Made by a program: the position numbers and the translations under genes
Source: a bacterium
GTDB lineage: Bacteria; DRYD01
Length of the DNA stretch: 64,000 nt
NCBI GenBank assembly: GCA_030549815.1
Contig: JAUQQQ010000005.1
Coordinates: forward strand, 1 to 64,000
Reading direction: 5' to 3'
Shown: one piece after another, positions 27,711 to 51,780 of the stretch
How the letters are laid out: each line of letters starts with the position of its first letter
Numbering within the stretch: position 1 is the stretch's first letter
Notes under the pieces: model-generated
Databases searched by the model: none
The model's input: the letters and a program-made list of their open reading frames with translations, nothing else
Told to the model about the DNA's origin: nothing

Positions 27711-28436
27711 TTATCCAAATCCGAATAGTTTCTTAACGCCTTCAAAAATTCCTTTACCTACCTCAACTATTCCACCAACTATACCGCCTGCTACTTTACC
27801 GATAAATCCTCCAACTGCTTGACCAAGGGCACTTCCTCCAATACTACCAACAATACCTCCAAGTAATCCACCAACCAATGTTCCAACACCTGGGAATATA
27901 GCAGTTCCTAAGGCAGCCCCGATAGATGCACCTGCTTGCCAACCAACAAATCCTCCGGCAATTCCACCTACTGTTCCACCAACAGATCCACCAATTGCCA
28001 TACCATAATCTATTGCATTAGGTGGTTGTAATGGAGCAGGGAAAGGAGGTAATCCTCCAAGTGGAGGAGGAAATCCGATTGGTGGATATGGCATTCCCCC
28101 AAATGGAGGTGGAAGTGGAGAACCACAATATGGTGGGAAAGAAGGAACTCCACCAAAACCTGGGAATCCCCCACCTATCGGACCAAATATTGGTGGTTGA
28201 TGGCAACCACATTGTTGTGATTGCAATAATTGAATTAGTAACATTATTAATTGTATTATAATGAATGGTGGTATTTGTGGTTGGCAACAACCACCTGGCA
28301 TTATACCCATTCCTATGTTTATATTTACATTAGTTAAGTTATAAGCCCTATATGCATTTAATATTGTTTCCACTTGTTGTTGTCTTATAAGTGATAGCCA
28401 AGCTCCATCACCATACAATCCTGGTCCTGGCATCAT
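27711..28436 (-). CDS. Gly/Pro-rich protein with glycine-zipper C terminus, unknown function
   Basis: 241 residues. N-terminal helical part (1-45, YGDGAWLSLIRQQQVETILN), a Cys-containing segment (GGCCQPQ, CGCHQPP) around a short hydrophobic helix (60-72), a Pro/Gly/Phe region (80-140), then a long Gly/Ala/Val glycine-zipper (145-225: GGSVGGTVGGIAGGFVG and more) and amphipathic end GKGIFEGVKKLFGFG. Glycine zippers insert in or line membranes. No signal peptide. AGGAGGTG lies before the start and a strong terminator follows, so it is an independently expressed, well-translated gene. It is richer in G+C than its neighbours because of Gly/Pro codons. Function unknown. Confidence 0.8.
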   Translation of the reverse strand: MMPGPGLYGDGAWLSLIRQQQVETILNAYRAYNLTNVNINIGMGIMPGGCCQPQIPPFIIIQLIMLLIQLLQSQQCGCHQPPIFGPIGGGFPGFGGVPSFPPYCGSPLPPPFGGMPYPPIGFPPPLGGLPPFPAPLQPPNAIDYGMAIGGSVGGTVGGIAGGFVGWQAGASIGAALGTAIFPGVGTLVGGLLGGIVGSIGGSALGQAVGGFIGKVAGGIVGGIVEVGKGIFEGVKKLFGFG

Positions 28437-28618: not shown

Positions 28619-29245
28619 ATGGGTAAGATTTATATTTTTCCACTGATTAATGTTGTACTAATGCCCGGAAACATAGTGGGAATAATTATTAATGATGAAA
28701 AATTATTGAATAATCTTTCATCTCATGAAAGGAAATTTATAGCATCTTTAGTTAAAGATGAAAAAAAATTAGAGCTTAATGATTACGGATGTTTATGCGA
28801 AATAATAGGAATGCAAAAGTTATCTAAAAATACTTTTATCTTACAATTAAAAGTATCAAAAAGAGTAAAAATAGGAAAAATAGAATTCGATGATATATAC
28901 CCATTTACAGAAAATTACAAAGTATTAGAAGAAAATATAGAAGATGATCCTATTACCAAAGAAAAGCTTCTTAGTTTAGCACAAAAATATATACCCTTCC
29001 TTAACTACGAAAACATTTCATCTTTAAGGGACAAAGATCTATGCTCCTTAACAGATATTATCGTTTCTATAATGAAAGCTAATATAAAGATAAAACAACA
29101 ATTTTTAGAAGAACCTATGTGTTTAATAAGAGCCCAAAAACTAATAGAATTATTAGAACAAATATTGAAAAGATGGCCAGGTAAAATAATTATCCTGAAA
29201 AGCTTCCTACCAAAACCATTACCAACAACCATTTACCTAACATGA
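28619..29245 (+). CDS. LON N-terminal-domain protein (no protease domain)
   Basis: 208 residues matching the substrate-binding domain of Lon: PLINVVLMPGNIVGIII at the start, then CLCEIIGMQKLSKNTFILQLKVSKRVKIG and a helical second half. ATPase and protease domains are absent. Stand-alone LON-domain proteins are common and mostly uncharacterised. The start is ATG 28619 with a weak GAAAAG. It overlaps minC by 4 bases, which ties it to the Min operon. Confidence 0.82.
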   Translation: MGKIYIFPLINVVLMPGNIVGIIINDEKLLNNLSSHERKFIASLVKDEKKLELNDYGCLCEIIGMQKLSKNTFILQLKVSKRVKIGKIEFDDIYPFTENYKVLEENIEDDPITKEKLLSLAQKYIPFLNYENISSLRDKDLCSLTDIIVSIMKANIKIKQQFLEEPMCLIRAQKLIELLEQILKRWPGKIIILKSFLPKPLPTTIYLT

Positions 29246-30018
29246 TTTTAAAACAAGAAAAAGGGAAATTAATAATAAAAATAGATAAATTGGAACAAAA
29301 TGAAATAATAAAAAAATTAGAAGAATTTACAGTTAAAGGATTAAAAGAGATAGCAGAAAAAAACCAAGTTATACTCGATTTAGGTGACTTGGGATTAAAC
29401 GAAGATGATTTTAAAAACTTAATTAAAATTTTTTATAACTTTTCAATCCCTATTGATTCCATAAGAAATACTAACCCTATAACTAAAATGATTTCGATAA
29501 ATTATGGGATACCTGTGGATGCTCCTTCAATAATTAATACTCAAAATAAACTTAATCCTCGTGCTAATCCCATAAAAGATGAAATTCCTAAAATAAATAA
29601 TGATAAAACAAACAAATCTCAAAATTTATCTGCACCCACCTTGCCTAACCTAAACCAAGAAACAAATGGTATATTGATATACAGAAAAAATGTCAGGAGT
29701 GGTTCAGTACTGGAAAGTGAAAAAACAATTTTACTAATAGGTAACGTTAATCCAGGAGCAGAAATAAAAAGTTCAAACAGTATTATAATTTTAGGTAAAT
29801 TAATGGGGACAGCACACGCAGGATACCCTAATAATCCTAACGCAATCATCTTTACACTTAAACTTAAAAATCCTCTCATAAAAATAGCGGATATGGTAGC
29901 CGAATTCGATGAAGAATCTATAAAAAAACAAGTTAAATCCAGAGAAATTTCTAACATCCTATTTTATTCAGACAATAACTCCATAAGGATGGAAATAATA
30001 AAAGAACAAAAGGAGTGA
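29242..30018 (+). CDS. minC: Septum site-determining protein MinC
   Basis: Inhibitor of FtsZ polymerisation at the poles. 258 residues: a divergent N-terminal domain (1-95), a linker rich in Asn/Pro/Lys (100-140), then the beta-helical MinC C domain (145-240) with VRSGSVLESEKTILLIGNVN, PGAEIKSSNSIIILGKLMGT and the MinD-contacting AHAGYP. Followed by minD 8 bases later. Confidence 0.93.
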   Translation: MILKQEKGKLIIKIDKLEQNEIIKKLEEFTVKGLKEIAEKNQVILDLGDLGLNEDDFKNLIKIFYNFSIPIDSIRNTNPITKMISINYGIPVDAPSIINTQNKLNPRANPIKDEIPKINNDKTNKSQNLSAPTLPNLNQETNGILIYRKNVRSGSVLESEKTILLIGNVNPGAEIKSSNSIIILGKLMGTAHAGYPNNPNAIIFTLKLKNPLIKIADMVAEFDEESIKKQVKSREISNILFYSDNNSIRMEIIKEQKE

Positions 30019-30025
30019 AGGAAAA

Positions 30026-30841
30026 GTGGAAAAACTAAAAAGATCAATAGTCGTTACTTCAGGGAAAGGCGGAGTTGGTAAAACTACAATTACCGCCAAT
30101 ATAGGAGCTGCATTGGCAAATATGAACTACGGTGTTGTTTTAGTTGATGCTGACGTTGGACTTAGAAATTTAGATTTAGTATTAGGATTAGAAAATAGAA
30201 TAGTTTTTGATTTACTTGATGTAATAGAAAACAGATGCAGAAGTTATAAACAAGCATTAATAAAGGATAAAAGGATAGGTAATCTTTATCTACTTCCAGC
30301 ACCACAAACAAAACAAAAAGAAGACGTCCCAATAGAAAAATTCAAAGAATTAATAGAAGAAATAAGAAATGATTTTGATTTTGTTATAATAGACTGCCCT
30401 GCAGGAATAGAACACGGCTTCAAAATGTCAGCCGAAGCTGCAATCGAATCCATAGTTGTAACAACTCCCGACCTTTCGTCAATAAGAGACGCTGATAGAG
30501 TTATAGCTACTTTAGAATCTATGGAAAAAAATCCACCAAAATTGATAATTAATAGACTTAAGAAGCATATGGTAAAAAAATCTCAGATGTTATCAATTGA
30601 AGATATCCTCGAAACTTTAAATGTAGAATTATTAGGAGTTGTTCCCGATGATGAATATATAACCATCTCAACAAATAATGGAGAACCCGTAGTCTTAAAC
30701 AAAACTAAACCCCTTTATAAGTATTTTCATAACATAGCTCAACGAATTATAGATCCACAAGTCGCTTTAGAAAACCCATTCAATGAAGGAAACATTTTCC
30801 AAAAATTCGCCAGCTTAGTGGGATTAAAGAAACCAAAGTAG
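30026..30841 (+). CDS. minD: Septum site-determining ATPase MinD
   Basis: 271-residue membrane-cycling ATPase. Deviant Walker A GKGGVGKTT, VDADVGLRNLDLVLGLE, IDCPAGIEHG, and the C-terminal amphipathic membrane-targeting helix NIFQKFASLVGLKK. The start is GTG 30026 with GGAGTGAAGG upstream. Placed between minC and minE as usual. Confidence 0.97.
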   Translation: MEKLKRSIVVTSGKGGVGKTTITANIGAALANMNYGVVLVDADVGLRNLDLVLGLENRIVFDLLDVIENRCRSYKQALIKDKRIGNLYLLPAPQTKQKEDVPIEKFKELIEEIRNDFDFVIIDCPAGIEHGFKMSAEAAIESIVVTTPDLSSIRDADRVIATLESMEKNPPKLIINRLKKHMVKKSQMLSIEDILETLNVELLGVVPDDEYITISTNNGEPVVLNKTKPLYKYFHNIAQRIIDPQVALENPFNEGNIFQKFASLVGLKKPK

Positions 30842-32234: not shown

Positions 32235-33833
32235 ATGATAAAAAAAAAAGAAGGATTTTACCTTTACTTATGGTTAGGACTTTTTGCATTATTTATTAGT
32301 TTTTTTGGTATCGTTCTATTCAATTACGTAGGAGCGGATATCAAAGCAACTAGGAGCATTTACCAAGACTCCAGACTCTACTATGATATAAAATCAATTC
32401 TAGTATCAATTACAGAAATATACAGAGAAAGTAACTTCAACTCCCCCAATAACCCTTCAATTCGAAGAGGACAGTATGAATACAAAAATGGATCAAAAAG
32501 ATATCAAGTTGATTATGAAATCAATCCATTAAATAGCACCCATTTACTAATTGAAATTCATGAGAATAACAAACTACGGGCAAGAGGAATTGTTAAATGG
32601 AGAGAAAACATAAGTGATTTTGCTCTTATTACAGCAAAAAATAATGAAGAGTTTAAATCAAATTCATTCTATTCTTCTGCAGCAATTTTCTCTAACACCA
32701 TAACTATACCCGAAACTAACAGATTTATTTTTAATAAAGTAGTAATAAATGAAGATACAATAGTAAATGGAATAGGTCCACTTAATAACCTACAGGAAAT
32801 GCAAAAATTTGCTCAATTTATCGAAATTAATAACTCTCTTAACGATATAATTCAATACTATAATCAAGTACTAAACGAAGTATATGACAAAATTGTTACA
32901 CCCTTAAACTCAACATATACTTCGCAATACTCTAATGCAGGAAATGTTGTTTTAACACCATATGGAGGAATATATATCAAACGAATAAATACACTTCAAG
33001 CAATAAAAATAAACTTCTCAATTCAAAATGGTAATCAAATCATAGAATTCTTCGGAATACAAAATAATAATATTACCGGTCGCATTGCAACATTTAAACA
33101 TATATTACAAGAACCTGACGTAGTTACCTTACAAAATGGAAATGAAGTAATTTCAAATGATAATACCATAATCAATAGCATTAGATCTCATAACCCCTAC
33201 ATAGTAATAAACCCCATATCAAAAATATTACAACACAATGATCTTTATACAATCTACACAAACCTAAATATGGATAACACCATAATATACAGCGAAATAC
33301 CTTTAGAAATAGGAAGTGATGGTCCTGACAACCCTAATAATGCTACAATAAACACAAAAATAATGATAATAACTCCTAACAATATTATCATCAAAAATAA
33401 CATCCTTTACTCCCACTTTAATAATCTATCAAATTACATTAATCAAATAGAAAACAATAATACAATCAATTTAAGAGATAGTAACGATCTATTACGAATA
33501 ATAGCAGATAACATAACTTTTGATACATCTGAATTCCAACAAACTGATACTAACAAAAATACAATGTGCTTGAATGGACAGTTTGTAGCAATGTTTAGTA
33601 GAAATAGTCAAGTGAGAATTACTAACCCTAGCAACATTTCCAATTTCTTCATCTTTGGATCTCTACAAGCATCACAGAGAATGAACTTTGATCAAAATTT
33701 TCAAGAAAGATATATATTAGATGGAAGACTTACTACTTTAGACCCAACTCTATCAATTATTATTGATAACATAGACAATTCTATATACCTTAATAAAGTG
33801 AGTGTCTTGGGAATAGAAATATTGAGCAAATAA
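32235..33833 (+). CDS. PilX/GspK-like minor pilin or exported pilus protein
   Basis: 532 residues. The N terminus (KKKEGFYLYLWLGLFALFI) has the basic leader, Gly and long hydrophobic helix of type IV pilin-like proteins, but no Glu at +5, as in PilX/GspK-type minor pilins. The rest is a large Asn/Ile/Thr-rich beta-type ectodomain. It precedes the Hint-bearing prepilin by 12 bases and is read as its operon partner. It is longer than most minor pilins (usually 150-350). The SD is GAGGGTG before ATG 32235. Confidence 0.72.
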   Translation: MIKKKEGFYLYLWLGLFALFISFFGIVLFNYVGADIKATRSIYQDSRLYYDIKSILVSITEIYRESNFNSPNNPSIRRGQYEYKNGSKRYQVDYEINPLNSTHLLIEIHENNKLRARGIVKWRENISDFALITAKNNEEFKSNSFYSSAAIFSNTITIPETNRFIFNKVVINEDTIVNGIGPLNNLQEMQKFAQFIEINNSLNDIIQYYNQVLNEVYDKIVTPLNSTYTSQYSNAGNVVLTPYGGIYIKRINTLQAIKINFSIQNGNQIIEFFGIQNNNITGRIATFKHILQEPDVVTLQNGNEVISNDNTIINSIRSHNPYIVINPISKILQHNDLYTIYTNLNMDNTIIYSEIPLEIGSDGPDNPNNATINTKIMIITPNNIIIKNNILYSHFNNLSNYINQIENNNTINLRDSNDLLRIIADNITFDTSEFQQTDTNKNTMCLNGQFVAMFSRNSQVRITNPSNISNFFIFGSLQASQRMNFDQNFQERYILDGRLTTLDPTLSIIIDNIDNSIYLNKVSVLGIEILSK

Positions 33834-33845
33834 GGGGGTGAATTT

Positions 33846-35123
33846 ATGAAAACAAAAAAAGGAATTACTATCGTTGAAGTCGTAATTAGTTTTACTATTG
33901 CTCTTATACTCATCATGTCCCTATATATGATAGTTTACTGGGGAACTAATACAAACACCATAAACAATAAAATAATAAGAATAAACAACGCAATGACTTT
34001 TATTCAACAAGATATGCTTAATAATACACCATTGTATTTCGAATTACAATCAAACGGTTCCATAAACCCTAAGCAAAATATCAACGATATATTAAAAACA
34101 AGATTACAACAATTCAAGTTAAATGATCCCATCATCATAAACGTGAGATTGGTAAGCTTTCAAAGAGAAAGAATAAACAATTCATTACAACAATTCAATA
34201 ATATATATAGAGTAAGGATAGAAATAGAATGGATACATAAAGGACAAAATAGACGTTATCAAACCGATTTTCTTATTAGCGACTATAGCCTAAAAAAAAT
34301 CTCTTCCTCACAAGATCCCGTATCAACCAGCCTTAGGATTAATTTACCAAATAACTACTATTCGCCCGTAATCAGAGAAACCTATGTTGATGGCATTCCT
34401 GGTGTTAATCCAGGCACTCCTTCTAGTCCAGGCACTCCTTCTGACCCAGGCACTCCTTCTGACCCAGGCACTCCTTCTGACCCAGGCACTCCTTCTGACC
34501 CAGGCACTCCTTCTGAGCCAGGCACCCCCTCTGACCCAGGTGGAGGTTTTGGAGGTGGAGGATGTTTTGAAAAAGGAACACTTATACCTGTCTGCAAAAA
34601 TGGAAAAATTTTAACCAAAAATATTGAAGATATAAATGAGCAAGATTTTGTTGTATCTTTCCATAATAACCAAATTATGCCCATAAAAGTCGAAAAGTTA
34701 CATGCACACGAAGGAGAATTCCAAATTGTTCAAATTCAAACCAAATCAGGATTGACCTTCAGAGCAACACATAATCATCCTGCAATAGTTAATAACTGTC
34801 TCAGAAAATTTGGAAAGCTACAAATTGGAGACTATATCACTATTCTAAAAGATAATCAAATAATTACCGACCAGATATCCAATATATCCACACAAATAAT
34901 CAAAGGTAAAGTATATTCTATTGAGATTGAATCAAATGAAAAATATTGCTATAACCACTTTATAGGAAATAATGATGCTTTTATGTTAGTAAACTGTGGT
35001 ATGATGAAAATTAGTAAAGTATTAGCTAATCTATGTGTTTCAACTCTTTCATTAATTACAAGCATAGCTATAGGAACAGTAGTTAAAACCTATGGATTAC
35101 CAGGAGGTTCACAAACAAAATAA
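33846..35123 (+). CDS. Prepilin-like protein fused to a C-terminal Hint (intein-like) domain
   Basis: 425 residues. Class III-type prepilin start: KTKKG/ITIVEVVIS, with Glu at +5 and a hydrophobic helix to about 32; ectodomain to about 180; a PGTPSD-repeat linker (about 189-232) and GGGFGGGG; then a Hint domain, Cys240 to Asn383 (144 residues). Hint motifs: block A CFEKGTLIPV, block B LTFRATHNHPAI, late block VYSIEIESNEKYCYNHFIG, and the end MLVNC, i.e. terminal Asn followed by Cys384. The usual penultimate His is Val. About 41 residues with a hydrophobic stretch follow. AGGGGGTGA precedes ATG 33846. Bacterial intein-like domains cleave or splice their own backbone; activity here is inferred. 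Confidence 0.85.
   Translation: MKTKKGITIVEVVISFTIALILIMSLYMIVYWGTNTNTINNKIIRINNAMTFIQQDMLNNTPLYFELQSNGSINPKQNINDILKTRLQQFKLNDPIIINVRLVSFQRERINNSLQQFNNIYRVRIEIEWIHKGQNRRYQTDFLISDYSLKKISSSQDPVSTSLRINLPNNYYSPVIRETYVDGIPGVNPGTPSSPGTPSDPGTPSDPGTPSDPGTPSDPGTPSEPGTPSDPGGGFGGGGCFEKGTLIPVCKNGKILTKNIEDINEQDFVVSFHNNQIMPIKVEKLHAHEGEFQIVQIQTKSGLTFRATHNHPAIVNNCLRKFGKLQIGDYITILKDNQIITDQISNISTQIIKGKVYSIEIESNEKYCYNHFIGNNDAFMLVNCGMMKISKVLANLCVSTLSLITSIAIGTVVKTYGLPGGSQTK
34410..34536 (+). repeat. 18-bp tandem repeat encoding PGTPSD linker
   Basis: Seven near-identical 18-base units (CCAGGCACTCCTTCTGAC type), encoding PGTPS followed by S, D or E. The middle copies are identical, which points to slippage or recent expansion. 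G+C is far above that of the flanks. Confidence 0.9.
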
Positions 35124-36117: not shown

Positions 36118-38559
36118 TTACATTCTAATTGGGAATTGAATAGCAAACTTAGAATAATATTTATTAAACTCTGCGGTTAGGCCCAACCTCACTTTTCTAT
36201 TTTGTTTATCTTGATAAAATGCACCAAATCTTAAGGTAAATTCAGATAGATTATTTTGGAAAATATAATCAGATCCTTGCAAATTTTCAATTACCTGAAT
36301 TTCCTTGTTATTCAAAAGAAAATATCCCCTCACAGTAAGGAAAAAGATATCTGTATTTGTAAAATCAATTTTATCAATCCCTAAATAAAATTGATCAATA
36401 CTTTGTTGATCTACTTTTATATTTTTTTGCCATAACAAATTTTGAGTATTAGTTACATAATTCAATTTAGAAAGAATATTATTTTCAAATCCCAAAACTA
36501 TATTTTCTTTATTTCTTGTTTTCCAAGAAAATTCTAATCTAAAGTTTTTAGTATTAGAATTAAATTTTAGTGTTTCTTGAACACTTAAATCAACCCCTGT
36601 GTAAGAATTAATTTTATTACTCAAATTATAATTATTAAAATTTGCAAGCACATAAAATTTTGCTTGATCAAATAAAAAGTAAAGTCCATAACCTAAATAA
36701 TTTGTTTTTCTTTCAAAAGGTATTTGACTTCGAAAGTAATTTTGATTTGAGGATTCCACTTTTCCTGTAGATATAATTACACCCAATTTCATATTTTCTT
36801 TTAGGTATTTGTCGGCAACAAAATTAGTTCCCCACAATTTACCATCAAAGTTAAATTGATTAGATTCAAATTTCTCAAAAACATTGAAATTTCTTAATTT
36901 TACGTTTTTAGAAAATTTTGATTCCTCACTATCGCTACTTAAGTTCAATACAACTTGATTCCTTATGTGCTCAGAAATATTTGTTCCAATAATAAAATCC
37001 TGGATTCTACTGCTATTAGCAATACTACTTCCACTTGCTGAATTTATAGTAAAGATAATAGAAGAATTATCTCCTACATTATCAAACCAGGAGACTTTAA
37101 TATTAGGGTTAAGTACAAAATGGCTTACAAAGTTTAGATCAAACTGACCACTGACATTGGACCCTTGGTTTTCTATTAAATAGTAGGGTTTATTTAAATG
37201 TATATCTTGCCCTACATAAAGGTGTAAAATAGTATTGTTTAGATTCAAGTTAGAAGCATTATATACAAGTATTGGTCGCAACATAGTATTCGGATCACCG
37301 TTAATAAAGTAAGCAAAATTCAACAATTCAGCATTAGAATTATTTACGATTATGTGTCTTACATTATTATCCAGATCCATCAATACTGGAGTTTGAATTT
37401 GTATTGGATTAGTCCAACCTGATTGAAACAAATTTATTCCTGCAGCAGAAAAGTTATTCACAGTACTCCCCTTAACTCTTATCATTCCTGTATTTAAAAT
37501 ACTTCCTGAATTTACGTTAGCAAAATAAATTCCACTCGTAGAATCAACAGTTCCACTAAATGAACTATCCCAACTATTAAAAACATTTATTATTCCATTA
37601 TTTGAAACATTAACAAAATTACATCTAAAAACAGCAATACCATCATTGGATAAAAAATTGTAGTTAGATCCCGATAGTAAAATATCCGTTTGAATTAAAC
37701 CACTATTTTGAATATTTACAACATTATTTGTATTATTAGGATTATAAACCAATAATGCTTGATTACGAAATAAAGAGGCAAGGGAATTAGTTGAATTAGC
37801 AATATTGAAAATATTTCCATCGTTGGAAAAATTAACATTTATAGAGTTAGAAAAAGATAAAGAATTAAAAGTATAATTATATACTCCTCCAATAATTTGA
37901 GTATTTTGAAGATTGATCGTATTTTGAATATTACCAGAATTTTGAAAATTATCTGCGATTTTCGTATCAAAAGAAGTTAAAGAAAAATTATATAGATTAT
38001 CTATGTTAGAATTTTGAACATTTATATTGTTAGTTATATTTCCTATATTTTGGATATTAGAAAAATCAACGTTAACTGAATATAGAGAATAGTTATAAAA
38101 ATTTCCTGTCGGTTGATTTGTTATATCAATGTTATTATTAATAATACCATTATTTTGCAAAAAAGAATTTTGACTATAATTTACCCAATTATATCCAACC
38201 CAACTAACAACGTTTATAAAATTAAACCCTAATAAATTCTGGTTATTAATGTTTGCATAATTAGATATAGTGGAATTGTTGGTGAAAGTTGATGAACTAC
38301 CACTTCCAGTTCCTCCATAAACATAGGTAGCAAAATTATGATTCCAACCGTTATTAAAAGAAGAAGAAAAGGTATTATTAAGATTAGAGTTAATCGTAAG
38401 TGTAGATGAATTAATAATAGGAGGATTAATTACAGTAAAACCAAAAGGACTTCCATCAATAGATGCTGCTGTGTGAACTTGATTCCCCGCATAGACAATA
38501 TTTAAAAAAAGCAAAAAAATAATAAACGAAAAAATAGTTAAACTTAAAATTACTTTCAT
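36118..38559 (-). CDS. Autotransporter-like outer membrane protein
   Basis: 813 residues. Signal peptide (MKVILSLTIFSFIIFLLFLN...VYA), a long passenger of irregular repeats built on NNGIINN, IQNSGNI and NVSNNGIINV (beta-helix type), then from about residue 550 a region of alternating strands with aromatic residues (YLGYGLYFLF, FRLEFSW, FTLRFGAFY) that looks like a C-terminal beta-barrel. The very end is IQFPIRM, without the usual terminal Phe. TTG-GGT-ATG precedes; the ATG at 38559 has AAGGGTG 7 bases upstream. It is probably surface-exposed. An alternative is a non-autotransporter repetitive OMP. Confidence 0.78.
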   Translation of the reverse strand: MKVILSLTIFSFIIFLLFLNIVYAGNQVHTAASIDGSPFGFTVINPPIINSSTLTINSNLNNTFSSSFNNGWNHNFATYVYGGTGSGSSSTFTNNSTISNYANINNQNLLGFNFINVVSWVGYNWVNYSQNSFLQNNGIINNNIDITNQPTGNFYNYSLYSVNVDFSNIQNIGNITNNINVQNSNIDNLYNFSLTSFDTKIADNFQNSGNIQNTINLQNTQIIGGVYNYTFNSLSFSNSINVNFSNDGNIFNIANSTNSLASLFRNQALLVYNPNNTNNVVNIQNSGLIQTDILLSGSNYNFLSNDGIAVFRCNFVNVSNNGIINVFNSWDSSFSGTVDSTSGIYFANVNSGSILNTGMIRVKGSTVNNFSAAGINLFQSGWTNPIQIQTPVLMDLDNNVRHIIVNNSNAELLNFAYFINGDPNTMLRPILVYNASNLNLNNTILHLYVGQDIHLNKPYYLIENQGSNVSGQFDLNFVSHFVLNPNIKVSWFDNVGDNSSIIFTINSASGSSIANSSRIQDFIIGTNISEHIRNQVVLNLSSDSEESKFSKNVKLRNFNVFEKFESNQFNFDGKLWGTNFVADKYLKENMKLGVIISTGKVESSNQNYFRSQIPFERKTNYLGYGLYFLFDQAKFYVLANFNNYNLSNKINSYTGVDLSVQETLKFNSNTKNFRLEFSWKTRNKENIVLGFENNILSKLNYVTNTQNLLWQKNIKVDQQSIDQFYLGIDKIDFTNTDIFFLTVRGYFLLNNKEIQVIENLQGSDYIFQNNLSEFTLRFGAFYQDKQNRKVRLGLTAEFNKYYSKFAIQFPIRM

Positions 38560-38711
38560 ACCCAATCACCCTTCCCTTTACTATTTATTATTGTTAAAAT
38601 TTTTATTACTTTCTTTTTGAATTCTATTAAATTAATTCTACAGCCCTCTTTTATTATCCTCCATTAAATATTTAAAAAAGAAAAATAAAACAATTGTAGA
38701 AATAATATAAA

Positions 38712-44861: not shown

Positions 44862-46388
44862 ATGACAACAAGTAGTGTTAATAATAACCCAAGCAATAAC
44901 ACTACAAACACCAACAATTCGGTAAATACAAAACCTGTCCAAAGTCAAACAATATCATGTTCAACAACCACAGAGTCTACTTCAAATACAACAAAAGATA
45001 ACATACATCTTAAATATCAAAATTTAAAAGATATTCAAGTAGATAAAGTAATTAGTGGAGAAACAAACAAAAAACCAGAAAACAATCAATCATCCATAGG
45101 AGTTAATTCCAACAGCTTAGTTAATTCAGTAGGAGAAATATCAAACCAAATTGACCCCCATGCTCAAATATATCCATCCAACAACTACAGCCAAATAGGA
45201 TATCCCAGAAAACCAGATACCGAACTCAAAGATACTCACCTATCTAACATCGTATCAAAAGACGTCCAAAACCAAAAACAAAACCCTCAAAAACCAGATA
45301 CTGAACTCAAAGATACTCACCTGTCTAACATCGTATCGAAAGATATCCAAAATCAACAACAAAACAACATGGATGAAAATACAAAACAATTCGTAGATAA
45401 AGTAAATGATGTAGTTAATAATCCTGAAAAATATGCAAATCCATTTACAGGTAAGAATGGAAAAGGTGAGCAATGGAATAATTGGGGCCTTGGATTATTT
45501 AACACTTTAGCAGAAGGAAAGGATGAAGCATTAAAGCAAAAAGATGCTAAGGCGGCTCTTCAAAAACTAAGAGAAGAAGGTAGGTTAAGAACAGATTGGG
45601 ATAACTTAGCTCCAGGGTCATACATTTTGTGGGATGAAGGACAATGGGGGAAAATAGGAGTCTTCACAGGAGAAAGAAATGAAAAAGGAGAACCATTAAT
45701 AGTCATTACTGGAAATGGACAAGGAGATTTTACAGGTATAAAGAAAATCCCACTATCAGAAGCAGAAAAAATTCTCGGAGCCAAACCTGAAGGCTTCGCT
45801 TTACCACAGTTTGGAAATAACCAAACTCAACCTAATCAACCAAATCAAATTAACAACCAACCTAATAATGAACAAAATAATCCTTCACAAGTAAATCCAA
45901 ACAATTCAGGGCAAGTATCATTCCCACCTGATATGGATCCTGCTCAAAGAGAAAAAATAGAAAGATATTTAGCAAAAGCCAATGACGCCCTTGTTAATCC
46001 TCAGAAATATAGAAACCCTGGTAATAAAATGACGGGAAATGGGGAACAATGGGACCTCTGGTGCTTAGGATTTGTCAATGAAATGGGTGACAAAAAAGAT
46101 CCTTCGCTACAGCAAGACAGTGCAAAATTAGCATACTATGATCTTCTAAATAAAGGTAGAATAAGAACAGATTGGGATCAAATGGTACCAGGATCATACA
46201 TCTTATGGGATGAAGGAGAATGGGGACATATAGCAATATACACAGGAGAAAAGAATGAAAAAGGAGAACCCATAGTGATAACAACTACTGGTTGGGGCGG
46301 AGTAAGCGGAATCCATAAAATGCCACTTTCCCAATTAATACAAATGATGGGAGCAAAACCAGATGGTTGGGCAATACCTAAATTATAA
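44862..46388 (+). CDS. Protein with two CHAP/NlpC-like domains, the first inactivated
   Basis: 508 residues. Asn/Gln/Ser/Thr-rich N terminus (1-110), a 27-residue duplication (about 118-170), domain 1 (170-318), an N/Q/P linker (320-355), domain 2 (360-508). The domains share GEQWxxWxLGxxN, RTDWDxxxPGSYILWDEGxWG and NEKGEP. Domain 2 keeps a Cys401 (WCLGFVN) and His456 (GHIAIYTG) pair as in CHAP or NlpC/P60 hydrolases; domain 1 has Gly209 and Lys264 at those places. No signal peptide is seen. A cell-wall amidase or peptidase is a reasonable guess for domain 2, not a firm call. Confidence 0.8.
   Translation: MTTSSVNNNPSNNTTNTNNSVNTKPVQSQTISCSTTTESTSNTTKDNIHLKYQNLKDIQVDKVISGETNKKPENNQSSIGVNSNSLVNSVGEISNQIDPHAQIYPSNNYSQIGYPRKPDTELKDTHLSNIVSKDVQNQKQNPQKPDTELKDTHLSNIVSKDIQNQQQNNMDENTKQFVDKVNDVVNNPEKYANPFTGKNGKGEQWNNWGLGLFNTLAEGKDEALKQKDAKAALQKLREEGRLRTDWDNLAPGSYILWDEGQWGKIGVFTGERNEKGEPLIVITGNGQGDFTGIKKIPLSEAEKILGAKPEGFALPQFGNNQTQPNQPNQINNQPNNEQNNPSQVNPNNSGQVSFPPDMDPAQREKIERYLAKANDALVNPQKYRNPGNKMTGNGEQWDLWCLGFVNEMGDKKDPSLQQDSAKLAYYDLLNKGRIRTDWDQMVPGSYILWDEGEWGHIAIYTGEKNEKGEPIVITTTGWGGVSGIHKMPLSQLIQMMGAKPDGWAIPKL
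45211..45372 (+). repeat. 81-bp in-frame tandem duplication
   Basis: Two copies with an 81-base period encode KPDTELKDTHLSNIVSKD followed by a variable Gln/Asn/Pro tail. Differences are mostly synonymous or in the tail, which implies selection on the peptide. Confidence 0.9.
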
Positions 46389-48540: not shown

Positions 48541-50229
48541 TGAAAAAAAAGAAAGGTATAGTTTTAATGATAACCATTGCATTTTTAACAGTTCTAATAG
48601 CAGTTGTAATTCTTGCCCTTAACTCTTACAACTCAAGGTTTTCTTCAAACAATATAGAAAGATATTATGTAATGCAAAACATTGCAAAAGGTGCTTTAAA
48701 TAGAGCTATCGCTCAATTGTATGCCAACCCTGGATGAAATGGAGAAACATTCACATACAGAACTCCCTTAAGAAATTATAACGTTACAACAACAGTTACA
48801 CCCCAGGGATTCCCCTCAGATACAGTTATAATAAACATCGCTGTTTCAAATGGCAGAAATAATATAGACTTAGTTGGAATAGCGCAAGTTGACATTCTTT
48901 TTGATCCTGGGTCATTTGCAATAGCAACAGGCTCAAACATAACAACACAAGGAGGAAACCAATTGGTATTTACCTCTGACGACCCAAATGTAAGACTAAA
49001 AATATTAACAACTCAAGATATAACATGGGTTAGAGACTATCAAAATAATAACATCCAAGCACAAAACTATTCTATAGACCAAGCTATTGAAACTCAGGAA
49101 ATAAGCACAATAATAGCAAAAAAGTATTACAGGAAGAGGGACAGTAGACGCAGCAATAGCACAACAAATCGATCCAAATTTTAAACAAAGATTACAAAGC
49201 AACAATGATTTAGTAATAGATAACATAAATATAACTCCAGAATTTATAGAACAAAAATTTAGAACTTTTGTCGGCTCATTCCCAAATTTTGGAACAATCA
49301 CAAATACAGGTAGCCTCTCATTTACAAACAGTGAAGCCATTGCACAACCAGGTGTTAAATACATAAACCCATCTATACCCAATCAAGGAGTAATCTATAT
49401 AACATCTCCTGGAGAATATTACTTCGATGGAAGTTTAGATCTACAAGGCCAAGGAAATCTTAATATGGGTAGAATCCAAGTAAGATTACCAAAAGCAGGA
49501 GAAGGGCAACTATATGATAATTACAGAAACTTCTTTAATTACGTTAGAACAACATTTGGTAATAATTCAAAATATACCTTTGATGGGACAATATATACAA
49601 ACAACCCACCAGGGGGACAATACACAGCTAAAATAAGACCTTTAAGTGAAGCCCCACAAGATGCACTACCCATATTTATACAGGCAAACTACTCAGATAC
49701 AACAACAAGCAGCGGTAGTGGTGGAGGTAGAGGCAGAGGTGGTGGAGGAAGTGGCAACGCAACAACAACAATAATAGACCCAGACTTTTATTTCAGAACT
49801 AATGGGAAAACAGGCCAAAATTTCGCTTTTTACGGTAATAAAAAAGCTGGTATTAATATATATATAAACGGTAATGTACAAGTAGGCGGTAATGCTATTA
49901 TTAATCAAATAGATACAGATAGAAGCAATTTAACCTACAATACACTCTTAAGGAAACCATCAACACTAAGGTTATATTTAGCATCAGGATACAACTTCAC
50001 AGCAGGGAATGCTACAATAAATGCTGCTATAATTACCGATAATTTCAGGATAAATGGAAATCCAACAATATACGGTGCAATGTATGGAATGAATTTTTCA
50101 AATAACAATAATTCCTCATATAGTTTCGCAGGATCAATAACATTTACATATGATTCATCATTATTATCAAGAAGTCAAAATAGACAGAGGTTCAACCCAA
50201 GGTTGCTACACGTTTATATCCAACAATAA
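48541..50229 (+). pseudogene. PilX-like minor pilin gene broken by one stop and one frameshift
   Basis: A PilX-type start (KKKKGIVLMITIAFLTVLI, no Glu at +5) and EMQNIAKGALNRAIAQL-like helix are followed, after residue 65, by TGA (48735-48737) in the frame context PG-stop-NGETF. The frame then stays open to 49181. Near 49116-49122 a run GCAAAAAAG shifts reading by +1; removing one A joins STIIAKSITGRGTVDAAIA and leads to the stop at 50229. Apart from these two lesions the frame is intact (about 560 codons). Ectodomain features include a Gly/Ser/Arg-rich loop (GSGGGRGRGGGGSG). Two lesions make recoding unlikely, but sequencing error at the A-run is possible. Confidence 0.8.
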
Positions 50230-50243
50230 TGAAGGAGGAAAAA

Positions 50244-50672
50244 ATGAGAAAGAAAAAAGGATTCTCAATTTTAGAAGTATTAGTATCTTTTCTAATAGTA
50301 GTAATTGCCATATTTGGAGTGGTGAATTTTATCCTTTTTTACTCAAATTTTAATAGATCCTTAGAAAATAGGATACTCACATATACAATTGCCAACCAAG
50401 TATTAAACAACTTACTTTCAAGACCATACAATGACTTAAGAAATCTGGTAAATCAAAGTATAACAATAACTCGCGGAAATATAACGATTACATATACTGT
50501 AAATGAAAGAGCTTTTAGACCCATATGGTTACCCGTGGGATCCAATGAAAATATGCTAATAGAAATCTACGTCAATGCAACATATGTTGACAAAGGTAGA
50601 ACGATTTCTAACATAAGGCTTTGGGGAACAAAATACAGATGGGAGGGTATTATTAATGAAAGACCACAATAA
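50244..50672 (+). CDS. PilV-like minor pilin
   Basis: 142 residues. Prepilin signature MRKKKG/FSILEVLVSFLIV with Glu at +5 after cleavage, followed by a hydrophobic helix (to about 30) and a small ectodomain (NQVLNNLLSRPYNDLRNLV, then beta strands). AAGGAGG precedes ATG 50244. The longer reading from 50229 lacks a ribosome site and spoils the leader. It overlaps the next pilin gene by 17 bases. Confidence 0.85.
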   Translation: MRKKKGFSILEVLVSFLIVVIAIFGVVNFILFYSNFNRSLENRILTYTIANQVLNNLLSRPYNDLRNLVNQSITITRGNITITYTVNERAFRPIWLPVGSNENMLIEIYVNATYVDKGRTISNIRLWGTKYRWEGIINERPQ

Positions 50673-51780
50673 AAAAGGATTATCATTAGCTGAAACCATC
50701 ATAGCAATTGGCTTAGCATCATTACTAATGATTATAACATACACACTATTTGATATAACAATGAAAAACTACTATAGGAACGAAGAATTAAACTCTAATT
50801 TAGATAGAGCAAGAAAAATAGTCCCAATTATTAATAGACATTTACTAAATGCAGGCTTTGGATTCCCTTCAGGAGCTACTTTTGCAGTAGTATCGGCAGG
50901 AACAGGAAATGTAATAACAAGCAATGAAAGAGCAGATATACTCTTTTTAGCAGATTATACCGCATTTAACAATACCCCAACAAATATAAGAAGAAGAGAC
51001 ATATTCTTTACTCCACGGAGTTTTTCAACATCCGGAAACCAGTTTAATCTACAAATTGATAGATTAAATGGAGAAGATGATGGAACTATAGATAACAACT
51101 ACTTTGGATTAAATATAAATAGTTTTAGAGTAGGTAGCGGTATAATTTTCCTTTCTTACTACATATACAATCCATCATCACCTTCTCCCGCACCTAATAA
51201 CAGTATAAGACAAAACTTTGCTCAAATAAAAGCCGTAGGAATAATAACTGCCAGGAATGGTAATCAATTAAGAGGAGAAATCATAGGACCACATAGGCTT
51301 TCTATTGCCGATAATTTTCCAGCAGCATATCAAATGGTTACTTCTAATGGAATAACAAATTTCAGCGGCGTTATACCGGCTATAATTATAGGTATAAATG
51401 ATAACAATGACTCCCCATTGTTTATAAATAGCTCAAGGAATAATCAAAGAGTTTTAGATGATGCAGCTTTTTTTAAAATTTTCTATAGATACAATGATGG
51501 AACAGTTGTATTCTCTCAAGATACATTAACAAATAATAATCAAAACATTGTGCTTGATTCTTCAGCAGTCTTACAAAGGTATGTCGATAGCATAGGATAT
51601 GTTTTAATATTTAGAGAAAGAAGGAGAAGGACAGATGCAAACTGGATGCAACGTAATATAAGGTTTGTTACAAGAGGGATAGATGTACAATTCACATTTA
51701 ACAACGAAAGAAGAACACACCATATATTAAGTGATGAAGTAAAATTATTCAACATATACAACAGGAATAATTTCCAATGA
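50656..51780 (+). CDS. PilW-like minor pilin
   Basis: 374 residues. Prepilin signature HNKKG/LSLAETIIAIGLAS with Glu at +5, then a long helix and RARKIVPIINRHLLNAGFG as in PilW-type proteins. The ectodomain is large. GGGAGGG precedes ATG 50656. Last gene of cluster B. Its 3' end is duplicated in degraded form at 51833-52060, next to a scrap of osmC. Confidence 0.85.
   Translation: MKDHNKKGLSLAETIIAIGLASLLMIITYTLFDITMKNYYRNEELNSNLDRARKIVPIINRHLLNAGFGFPSGATFAVVSAGTGNVITSNERADILFLADYTAFNNTPTNIRRRDIFFTPRSFSTSGNQFNLQIDRLNGEDDGTIDNNYFGLNINSFRVGSGIIFLSYYIYNPSSPSPAPNNSIRQNFAQIKAVGIITARNGNQLRGEIIGPHRLSIADNFPAAYQMVTSNGITNFSGVIPAIIIGINDNNDSPLFINSSRNNQRVLDDAAFFKIFYRYNDGTVVFSQDTLTNNNQNIVLDSSAVLQRYVDSIGYVLIFRERRRRTDANWMQRNIRFVTRGIDVQFTFNNERRTHHILSDEVKLFNIYNRNNFQ

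Follow-up and report, generated by a model that had tools for sequence, protein, structure and literature searches.

Hedgehog proteins, bacterial intein-like (BIL) domains, the BUBL1 protein and modular type IV pilins are the described systems closest to the protein reported here. In Hedgehog, the HINT domain forms a thioester from the last glycine using Cys258, Thr326 and His329, and the nucleophile that resolves it is the hydroxyl group of a sterol (PMC9163320). Asp46, counted within the domain, acts as the general base; a laboratory exchange of this residue for histidine leaves the domain active and widens its range of substrates, and Cys400 is named as special to Hedgehog (PMC9163320). Type B BILs show no similarity to intein block G and cleave without splicing, with water as the expected nucleophile (PMC4031507), and BIL2 of BUBL1 uses a lysine (PMC8616854). 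Regarding the carrier, the main text of a survey of modular pilins reports 264 architectures, with S74 and M26 peptidases among the modules (PMC8179133).

We analyzed a stretch of 64,000 nucleotides from a hot-spring bacterium (the window), in which positions 33846–35123 of the forward strand form one open reading frame of 425 amino acids. Its translation and its homologues divide it into a prepilin, a repeat linker, a HINT domain and a hydrophobic tail, all given here in forward-strand coordinates. Only 12 bases separate the stop codon of the upstream gene from the ATG, and directly 5′ of the ATG we read a ribosome-binding stretch, GGGGGTGAATTT (33834–33845). The class III (prepilin) signal reads MKTKKG/ITIVEVV, with a glycine before the hydrophobic helix and a glutamate at +5, and the signal with its hydrophobic segment (33846–33935) reaches a Kyte–Doolittle mean of 2.7 over 19 residues. 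The first-pass annotation had pointed out this prepilin peptidase signature, which is present as it stated; PF07963 scores 23.1 bits on the protein in the genome search (cut-off 21.2) and 17.8 bits in hmmscan. The pilin body (33864–34390) is modeled with a mean pLDDT of 66 as a 52-residue α1 helix followed by β-strands. This model had no structural match in the PDB, so typing as GspH, GspI or GspJ failed. The linker (34391–34562) consists of PGTPSD repeats and a glycine run, and its last residue, Gly239, carries the predicted thioester carbonyl. The HINT domain, delimited by profiles, family alignment and fold, extends from Cys240 to Cys384 (34563–34997). Its key residues are Cys240 in CFEKGT, His286 and His288 in an HxH pair, Thr308 and His311 of the TxNH motif in ATHNHP, and a block-G-like VNCG. 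The remaining tail of 41 residues includes a hydrophobic segment (35019–35090; 19-residue mean of 1.87) with a low-confidence predicted helix, which we propose to be a membrane anchor or an adduct-recognition tail. Cys240, CFEKGT, ATHNHP, Asn383-Cys384 and the tail length had all been quoted correctly before, as re-reading of the letters confirmed.

The domain has the fold, the N-terminal nucleophile (Cys/Ser in the superfamily) and the block B TxxH motif of the HINT superfamily; it is a HINT domain, and the resemblance is not due to chance. A Hint domain on a prepilin had been proposed earlier, together with a profile search and a structure prediction to check it, and both of these return a Hint match. 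TIGR01445, the intein N-terminal region, scores 24.6 bits on the whole protein and 27.6 bits on the domain against a cut-off of 24.5, and PF14890 gives an E value of 1.6e-6, yet remains under its cut-off. The best match in a sequence search of the PDB is the KlbA intein, with an E value of 2.8e-7. PF07591 (pretoxin HINT) has no match in the protein or in its own genome and stays below the cut-off in homologues. PF01079, the Hedgehog Hint profile, passes its cut-off of 29.7 in three of the six family members described below, with 38.3, 35.8 and 31.0 bits; the window protein scores 12.6 bits and its paralogue is also below the cut-off. An AlphaFold model of residues 233–425 was built from two sequences and has pLDDT values mostly of 70–85 in the core and below 50 in the tail; the structure models of the HINT part and the pilin body rest on two to three sequences. 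All of the best Foldseek rows are HINT structures, namely Tetrahymena BIL2, a Clostridium thermocellum BIL, inteins, Hedgehog (1at0) and the D46H mutant (6tyy). The VIA-align Z scores are 14.6 for an intein (7oec), 14.4 for 1at0 and 14.2 for 6tyy, with rmsd values of 2.1–2.2. The superposition on 1at0 (rmsd 2.2) covers 126 residues and places model residues 8–153 on 258–401, beginning from Cys258. Since the three Z scores are tied, the fold alone cannot choose between an intein and Hedgehog. The ends of this range would put Cys384 at or beside Cys400 of Hedgehog.

Protein and profile searches for related genes gave six HINT domains for alignment, that of the window and five from Calescibacterium-type genomes. 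The own genome holds a full-length paralogue with 54% identity (contig C6), HINT pilins were found in relatives on G002 C61, G004 C15, G004 C5 and G005 C20, and a 46% identical protein is encoded in a MAG named Candidatus Calescibacterium, which places the own genome within this group or close to it. Cys1, Phe2, Glu3, the HxH pair and the Thr, Asn, His and Pro of the block B T.NHP motif are invariant in all six domains, and Gly precedes Cys1 in five. A difference from inteins lies in the last strand, which reads FMLVNCG in the window protein and YMLVHCG, FILAHSG (three times) and YMYVHSG in the others, so that the five homologues share (V/A)H(S/C)G. Because the alignment of the window protein with its paralogue is ungapped here, Asn383 is a substitution in the column of the penultimate His, and the column of the intein terminal Asn holds Ser or Cys in every member. 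The first-pass annotation had described an Asn-Cys C-terminal junction with Val in place of the penultimate His. The Val is true of the letters; in the family alignment, it is Asn383 itself that occupies the His column, with Cys384 in the Asn column. An intein- or BIL-A-like reaction at Asn383-Cys384 that splices or rearranges the C-terminus would draw on two residues that the window protein does have; given that Asn occurs in one of six homologues, on the penultimate His of the paralogue, where the others have H-S-G or H-C-G, we consider such a reaction very improbable, and the family does not support the junction claim. Since the family lacks a C-terminal Asn, splicing is not expected, and the chemistry that remains is an N–S acyl shift at Gly239-Cys240 followed by external attack.

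The HINT domains are 32–51% identical to that of the window, and the catalytic Cys, Thr and His are still invariant. The dN/dS ratio of the domain (Nei–Gojobori) is about 0.13–0.26, values that are approximate, as dS is near saturation for some pairs; the domain is under purifying selection. The module also moves between unlike pilins, as judged from G004, in which the bodies of two pilins are 32% identical and their HINT domains 79%. In other systems, Hint cassettes serve as blocks for recombination. The HINT domain could be an inactive, domesticated module that serves as an adhesive, a spacer or a recombination block between pilin genes, for which the same HINT on unlike pilins within one genome, a decayed copy and this known role of Hint cassettes can be cited. 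The invariant catalytic residues at such low identity and the low dN/dS argue against a dead module, and we regard it as unlikely. The decayed copy lies on contig C18 of the own genome (L029:7229–8300, about 29228–30300), where a different prepilin is followed by a stop codon and a shortened HINT with missing blocks, a pseudogene. On G002 C61 (L026:500–620), the pilin and the HINT are in different frames, and one unit of the PGTD-coding repeat measures 11 bases where the others have 12; the contig has about 5x coverage, so the frame break is possibly an error. At the end of G003 C22 (L035:9880–9920), a prepilin reaches the contig end as ...PPRWCL, in which the final two letters may open a further HINT.

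A conserved partner gene (32235–33833, +) encodes a 532-residue pilin-like protein without the +5 Glu (G/FYLYLWLGLF). It lies upstream of the HINT pilin in the window, on C6, on G004 C15 and on G005 C20, with an extra prepilin between the two genes in the last two cases. By its anatomy, the partner may be PilX/GspK-like, and the pair recalls tip minor pilins of that kind; the partner has no Pfam match and no profile that supports PilX/GspK. In the C6 copy (L027:10097–11680, −), a single in-frame TAG stands at a Trp of the window protein, and the downstream HINT pilin is intact. Profile searches of the own genome found 24 prepilin matches, one prepilin peptidase and two secretins, so the host is probably a diderm with a type 4 filament. 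The window contains a second minor-pilin cluster without HINT (49465–51780; 254, 147 and 374 residues). Other proteins of the window are an Asn-rich one of 815 residues (36118–38565, −) that is autotransporter-like by eye, with a barrel-like C-terminal end and no Pfam match; a Pro/Gly-rich one of 241 residues (27711–28436, −) that contains Cys-Cys motifs and resembles a glycine zipper in its C-terminal half; and one of 508 residues (44862–46388) in which a domain of ~120 residues and a KPDTELKDTHLSNIVSK stretch each occur twice.

With the residues, the fold, the conservation and the selection observed, we infer a reaction, a topology and a nucleophile. The protein is probably a modular minor pilin with a membrane-tethered C-terminal HINT domain that would perform Hedgehog- or BIL-B-like N-terminal autoprocessing, the first half of intein chemistry only. 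First, the N-terminal helix would insert the prepilin, and the only prepilin peptidase of the genome would process it. The C-terminal hydrophobic tail would then tether the linker and the HINT domain on the outside of the cytoplasmic membrane; hydropathy proposes this tail as a transmembrane anchor, in a part of the model that has low confidence. Aided by Thr308 and His311, Cys240 would attack the carbonyl of Gly239 to form a thioester, as the conserved residues and the fold suggest. Finally, water or an outside nucleophile such as an amine or a lipid hydroxyl would resolve the thioester without splicing. The pilin, freed from its second anchor, could enter the filament, and its new C-terminal Gly may be joined to the nucleophile. 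Autoprocessing is favored by the invariant Cys1 and TxNHP, the missing terminal Asn in all six members, the Gly before Cys1 in five, the PF01079 matches and the fold match to 1at0. It is also favored by a hydrophobic segment behind the HINT in all six members (19-residue means of 1.87–2.09, in tails whose sequences do not align), the dN/dS of the HINT, the HINT-less pilins that end at the linker, and the one peptidase with two secretins. Tolerated loss of the HINT, as seen in the decayed C18 copy and the frameshifted relative, counts against it, as do the absent block F Asp and the want of an unambiguous counterpart of Hedgehog Asp46. Without the terminal Asn, the expected scissile bond is N-terminal, Gly239-Cys240; the freed part would be the pilin, and the HINT and tail would be left behind. 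Of the fates once proposed for the C-terminus, release or attachment through the new end is thus the best supported, and rearrangement is unsupported.

The autoprocessing reading has two sub-cases. In the first, the thioester is only hydrolysed, and the HINT and tail act as a removable anchor or timer that delays filament entry. HINT-less related pilins stop where the linker begins, so the cleaved product would resemble an ordinary pilin, and such pilins need no C-terminal modification. A tail that is a second anchor beside the N-terminal helix would require a cut for extraction into the filament, although an ordinary protease site could serve equally. All of the support for autoprocessing applies, and no cofactor or acceptor is identified; however, the well-studied Hint domains that do not splice go beyond hydrolysis, with transfer in Hedgehog and ligation in BUBL. 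We keep plain self-cleavage as a tentative possibility. In the second sub-case, the pilin C-terminus is conjugated to a lipid hydroxyl, as in Hedgehog, or to a lysine, as in BUBL, which would fix the pilin to the surface, the membrane or a partner. Here, the PF01079 match in three members, the Gly before Cys1 and a hydrophobic tail where Hedgehog has its sterol-recognition region (SRR) point to transfer, as does the top Foldseek match, BUBL BIL2, with 26–28% identity over the structural alignment, which dispenses a ubiquitin-like domain onto lysines (PMC8616854). The tail has ~40 residues of variable sequence with one predicted helix, compared with two in the SRR, no acceptor is known and the general base is not placed, and we keep conjugation, too, as a tentative possibility. 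The invariant His residues (His286 and His288) are at Hint positions 47 and 49, and the alignments disagree on the counterpart of Asp46. MAFFT and hhalign were tried on the 1at0 sequence, and the position of the gap decides: an ungapped placement by eye gives the variable residue between both His residues, and hhalign with one gap gives the second His. In phmmer, the first invariant His falls beside the His of WHDRG in DnaE inteins. The identification of a family His with the Hedgehog general base was dropped because these placements conflict. A bacterial counterpart of Hedgehog maturation, in which a membrane-bound HINT joins the C-terminus of minor pilins covalently to a lipid, glycan or protein, is a speculative prospect that we hold as somewhat unlikely; if true, pili would form a covalent end by themselves, with no need for sortase or ATP.

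Regarding the distribution, the inspected matches from about 770 sampled genomes (386, and 383 around G034) include no HINT pilin outside Calescibacterota; there, they are HINT proteins without a prepilin signature. PF01079 is above its cut-off in three of the 386 genomes; the other two matches come from a large HINT protein and from a long ORF that bears an intein. Viral contigs scanned with the family alignment gave no relative. Small secreted HINT proteins of other bacteria (L080:1264–2022 and L077:751–1851) have an N-terminal signal peptide and a C-terminal HINT, with no terminal His-Asn by eye. Among 5.39 million open papers, none mentions a Hint domain together with a prepilin and two do so with a pilin, neither of which concerns such a protein as judged by title or abstract, and the main text of the modular-pilin survey names no Hint or intein module, though its dataset may hold a case (PMC8179133). 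If the chemistry holds, thioester self-processing would be added to pilus biology, and the assembly of a pilin bearing two membrane anchors would be explained. It would also offer a natural, easily handled Hog-like system from a thermophilic bacterium for the choice of Hint domains between cleavage and transfer, and possibly a tool to activate protein C-termini.

Finally, we compared the protein with each known system. It shares with Hedgehog Hog (Hint PF01079 and SRR) the HINT fold, Cys1 after Gly, TxxH, the lack of a terminal Asn and a hydrophobic region behind the HINT. However, it is bacterial and sits on a pilin, has a single short helix in its tail where the SRR has two and no sequence sign of sterol binding, and Asp46 is not kept as Asp in the family. 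As in type B BILs, the N-terminal nucleophile and blocks A and B are kept and the C-terminal His-Asn is lost, and cleavage rather than splicing would be expected; here, the host is a type IV pilin, a hydrophobic tail follows and a block-G-like His is kept in five of six members. The C-terminal His-Asn of type A BILs is missing, and the C-terminal Asn after His of class 1 inteins is absent from the aligned column in all six. The Tetrahymena BUBL1 BIL2 (6tmm, 6y75), the best Foldseek match, likewise has a small domain before a HINT that activates a C-terminus and a His near Hint position 48, whereas it keeps the terminal Asn, which is mutated in the crystal (N143A), and has ubiquitin-like domains as neighbors on both sides. 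The KlbA intein of Methanocaldococcus jannaschii and other class 1/2 inteins give the best PDB sequence match and the TIGR01445 score above cut-off, although the pilin HINT has no terminal Asn and no C-extein to splice. In modular pilins of the Streptococcus sanguinis PilB/PilC type, a linker likewise attaches an additional, non-pilin module to a minor pilin, and the HINT pilin differs from them by its proposed second membrane anchor. In summary, a known module and a known carrier are joined here in a new combination, likely with a new use.
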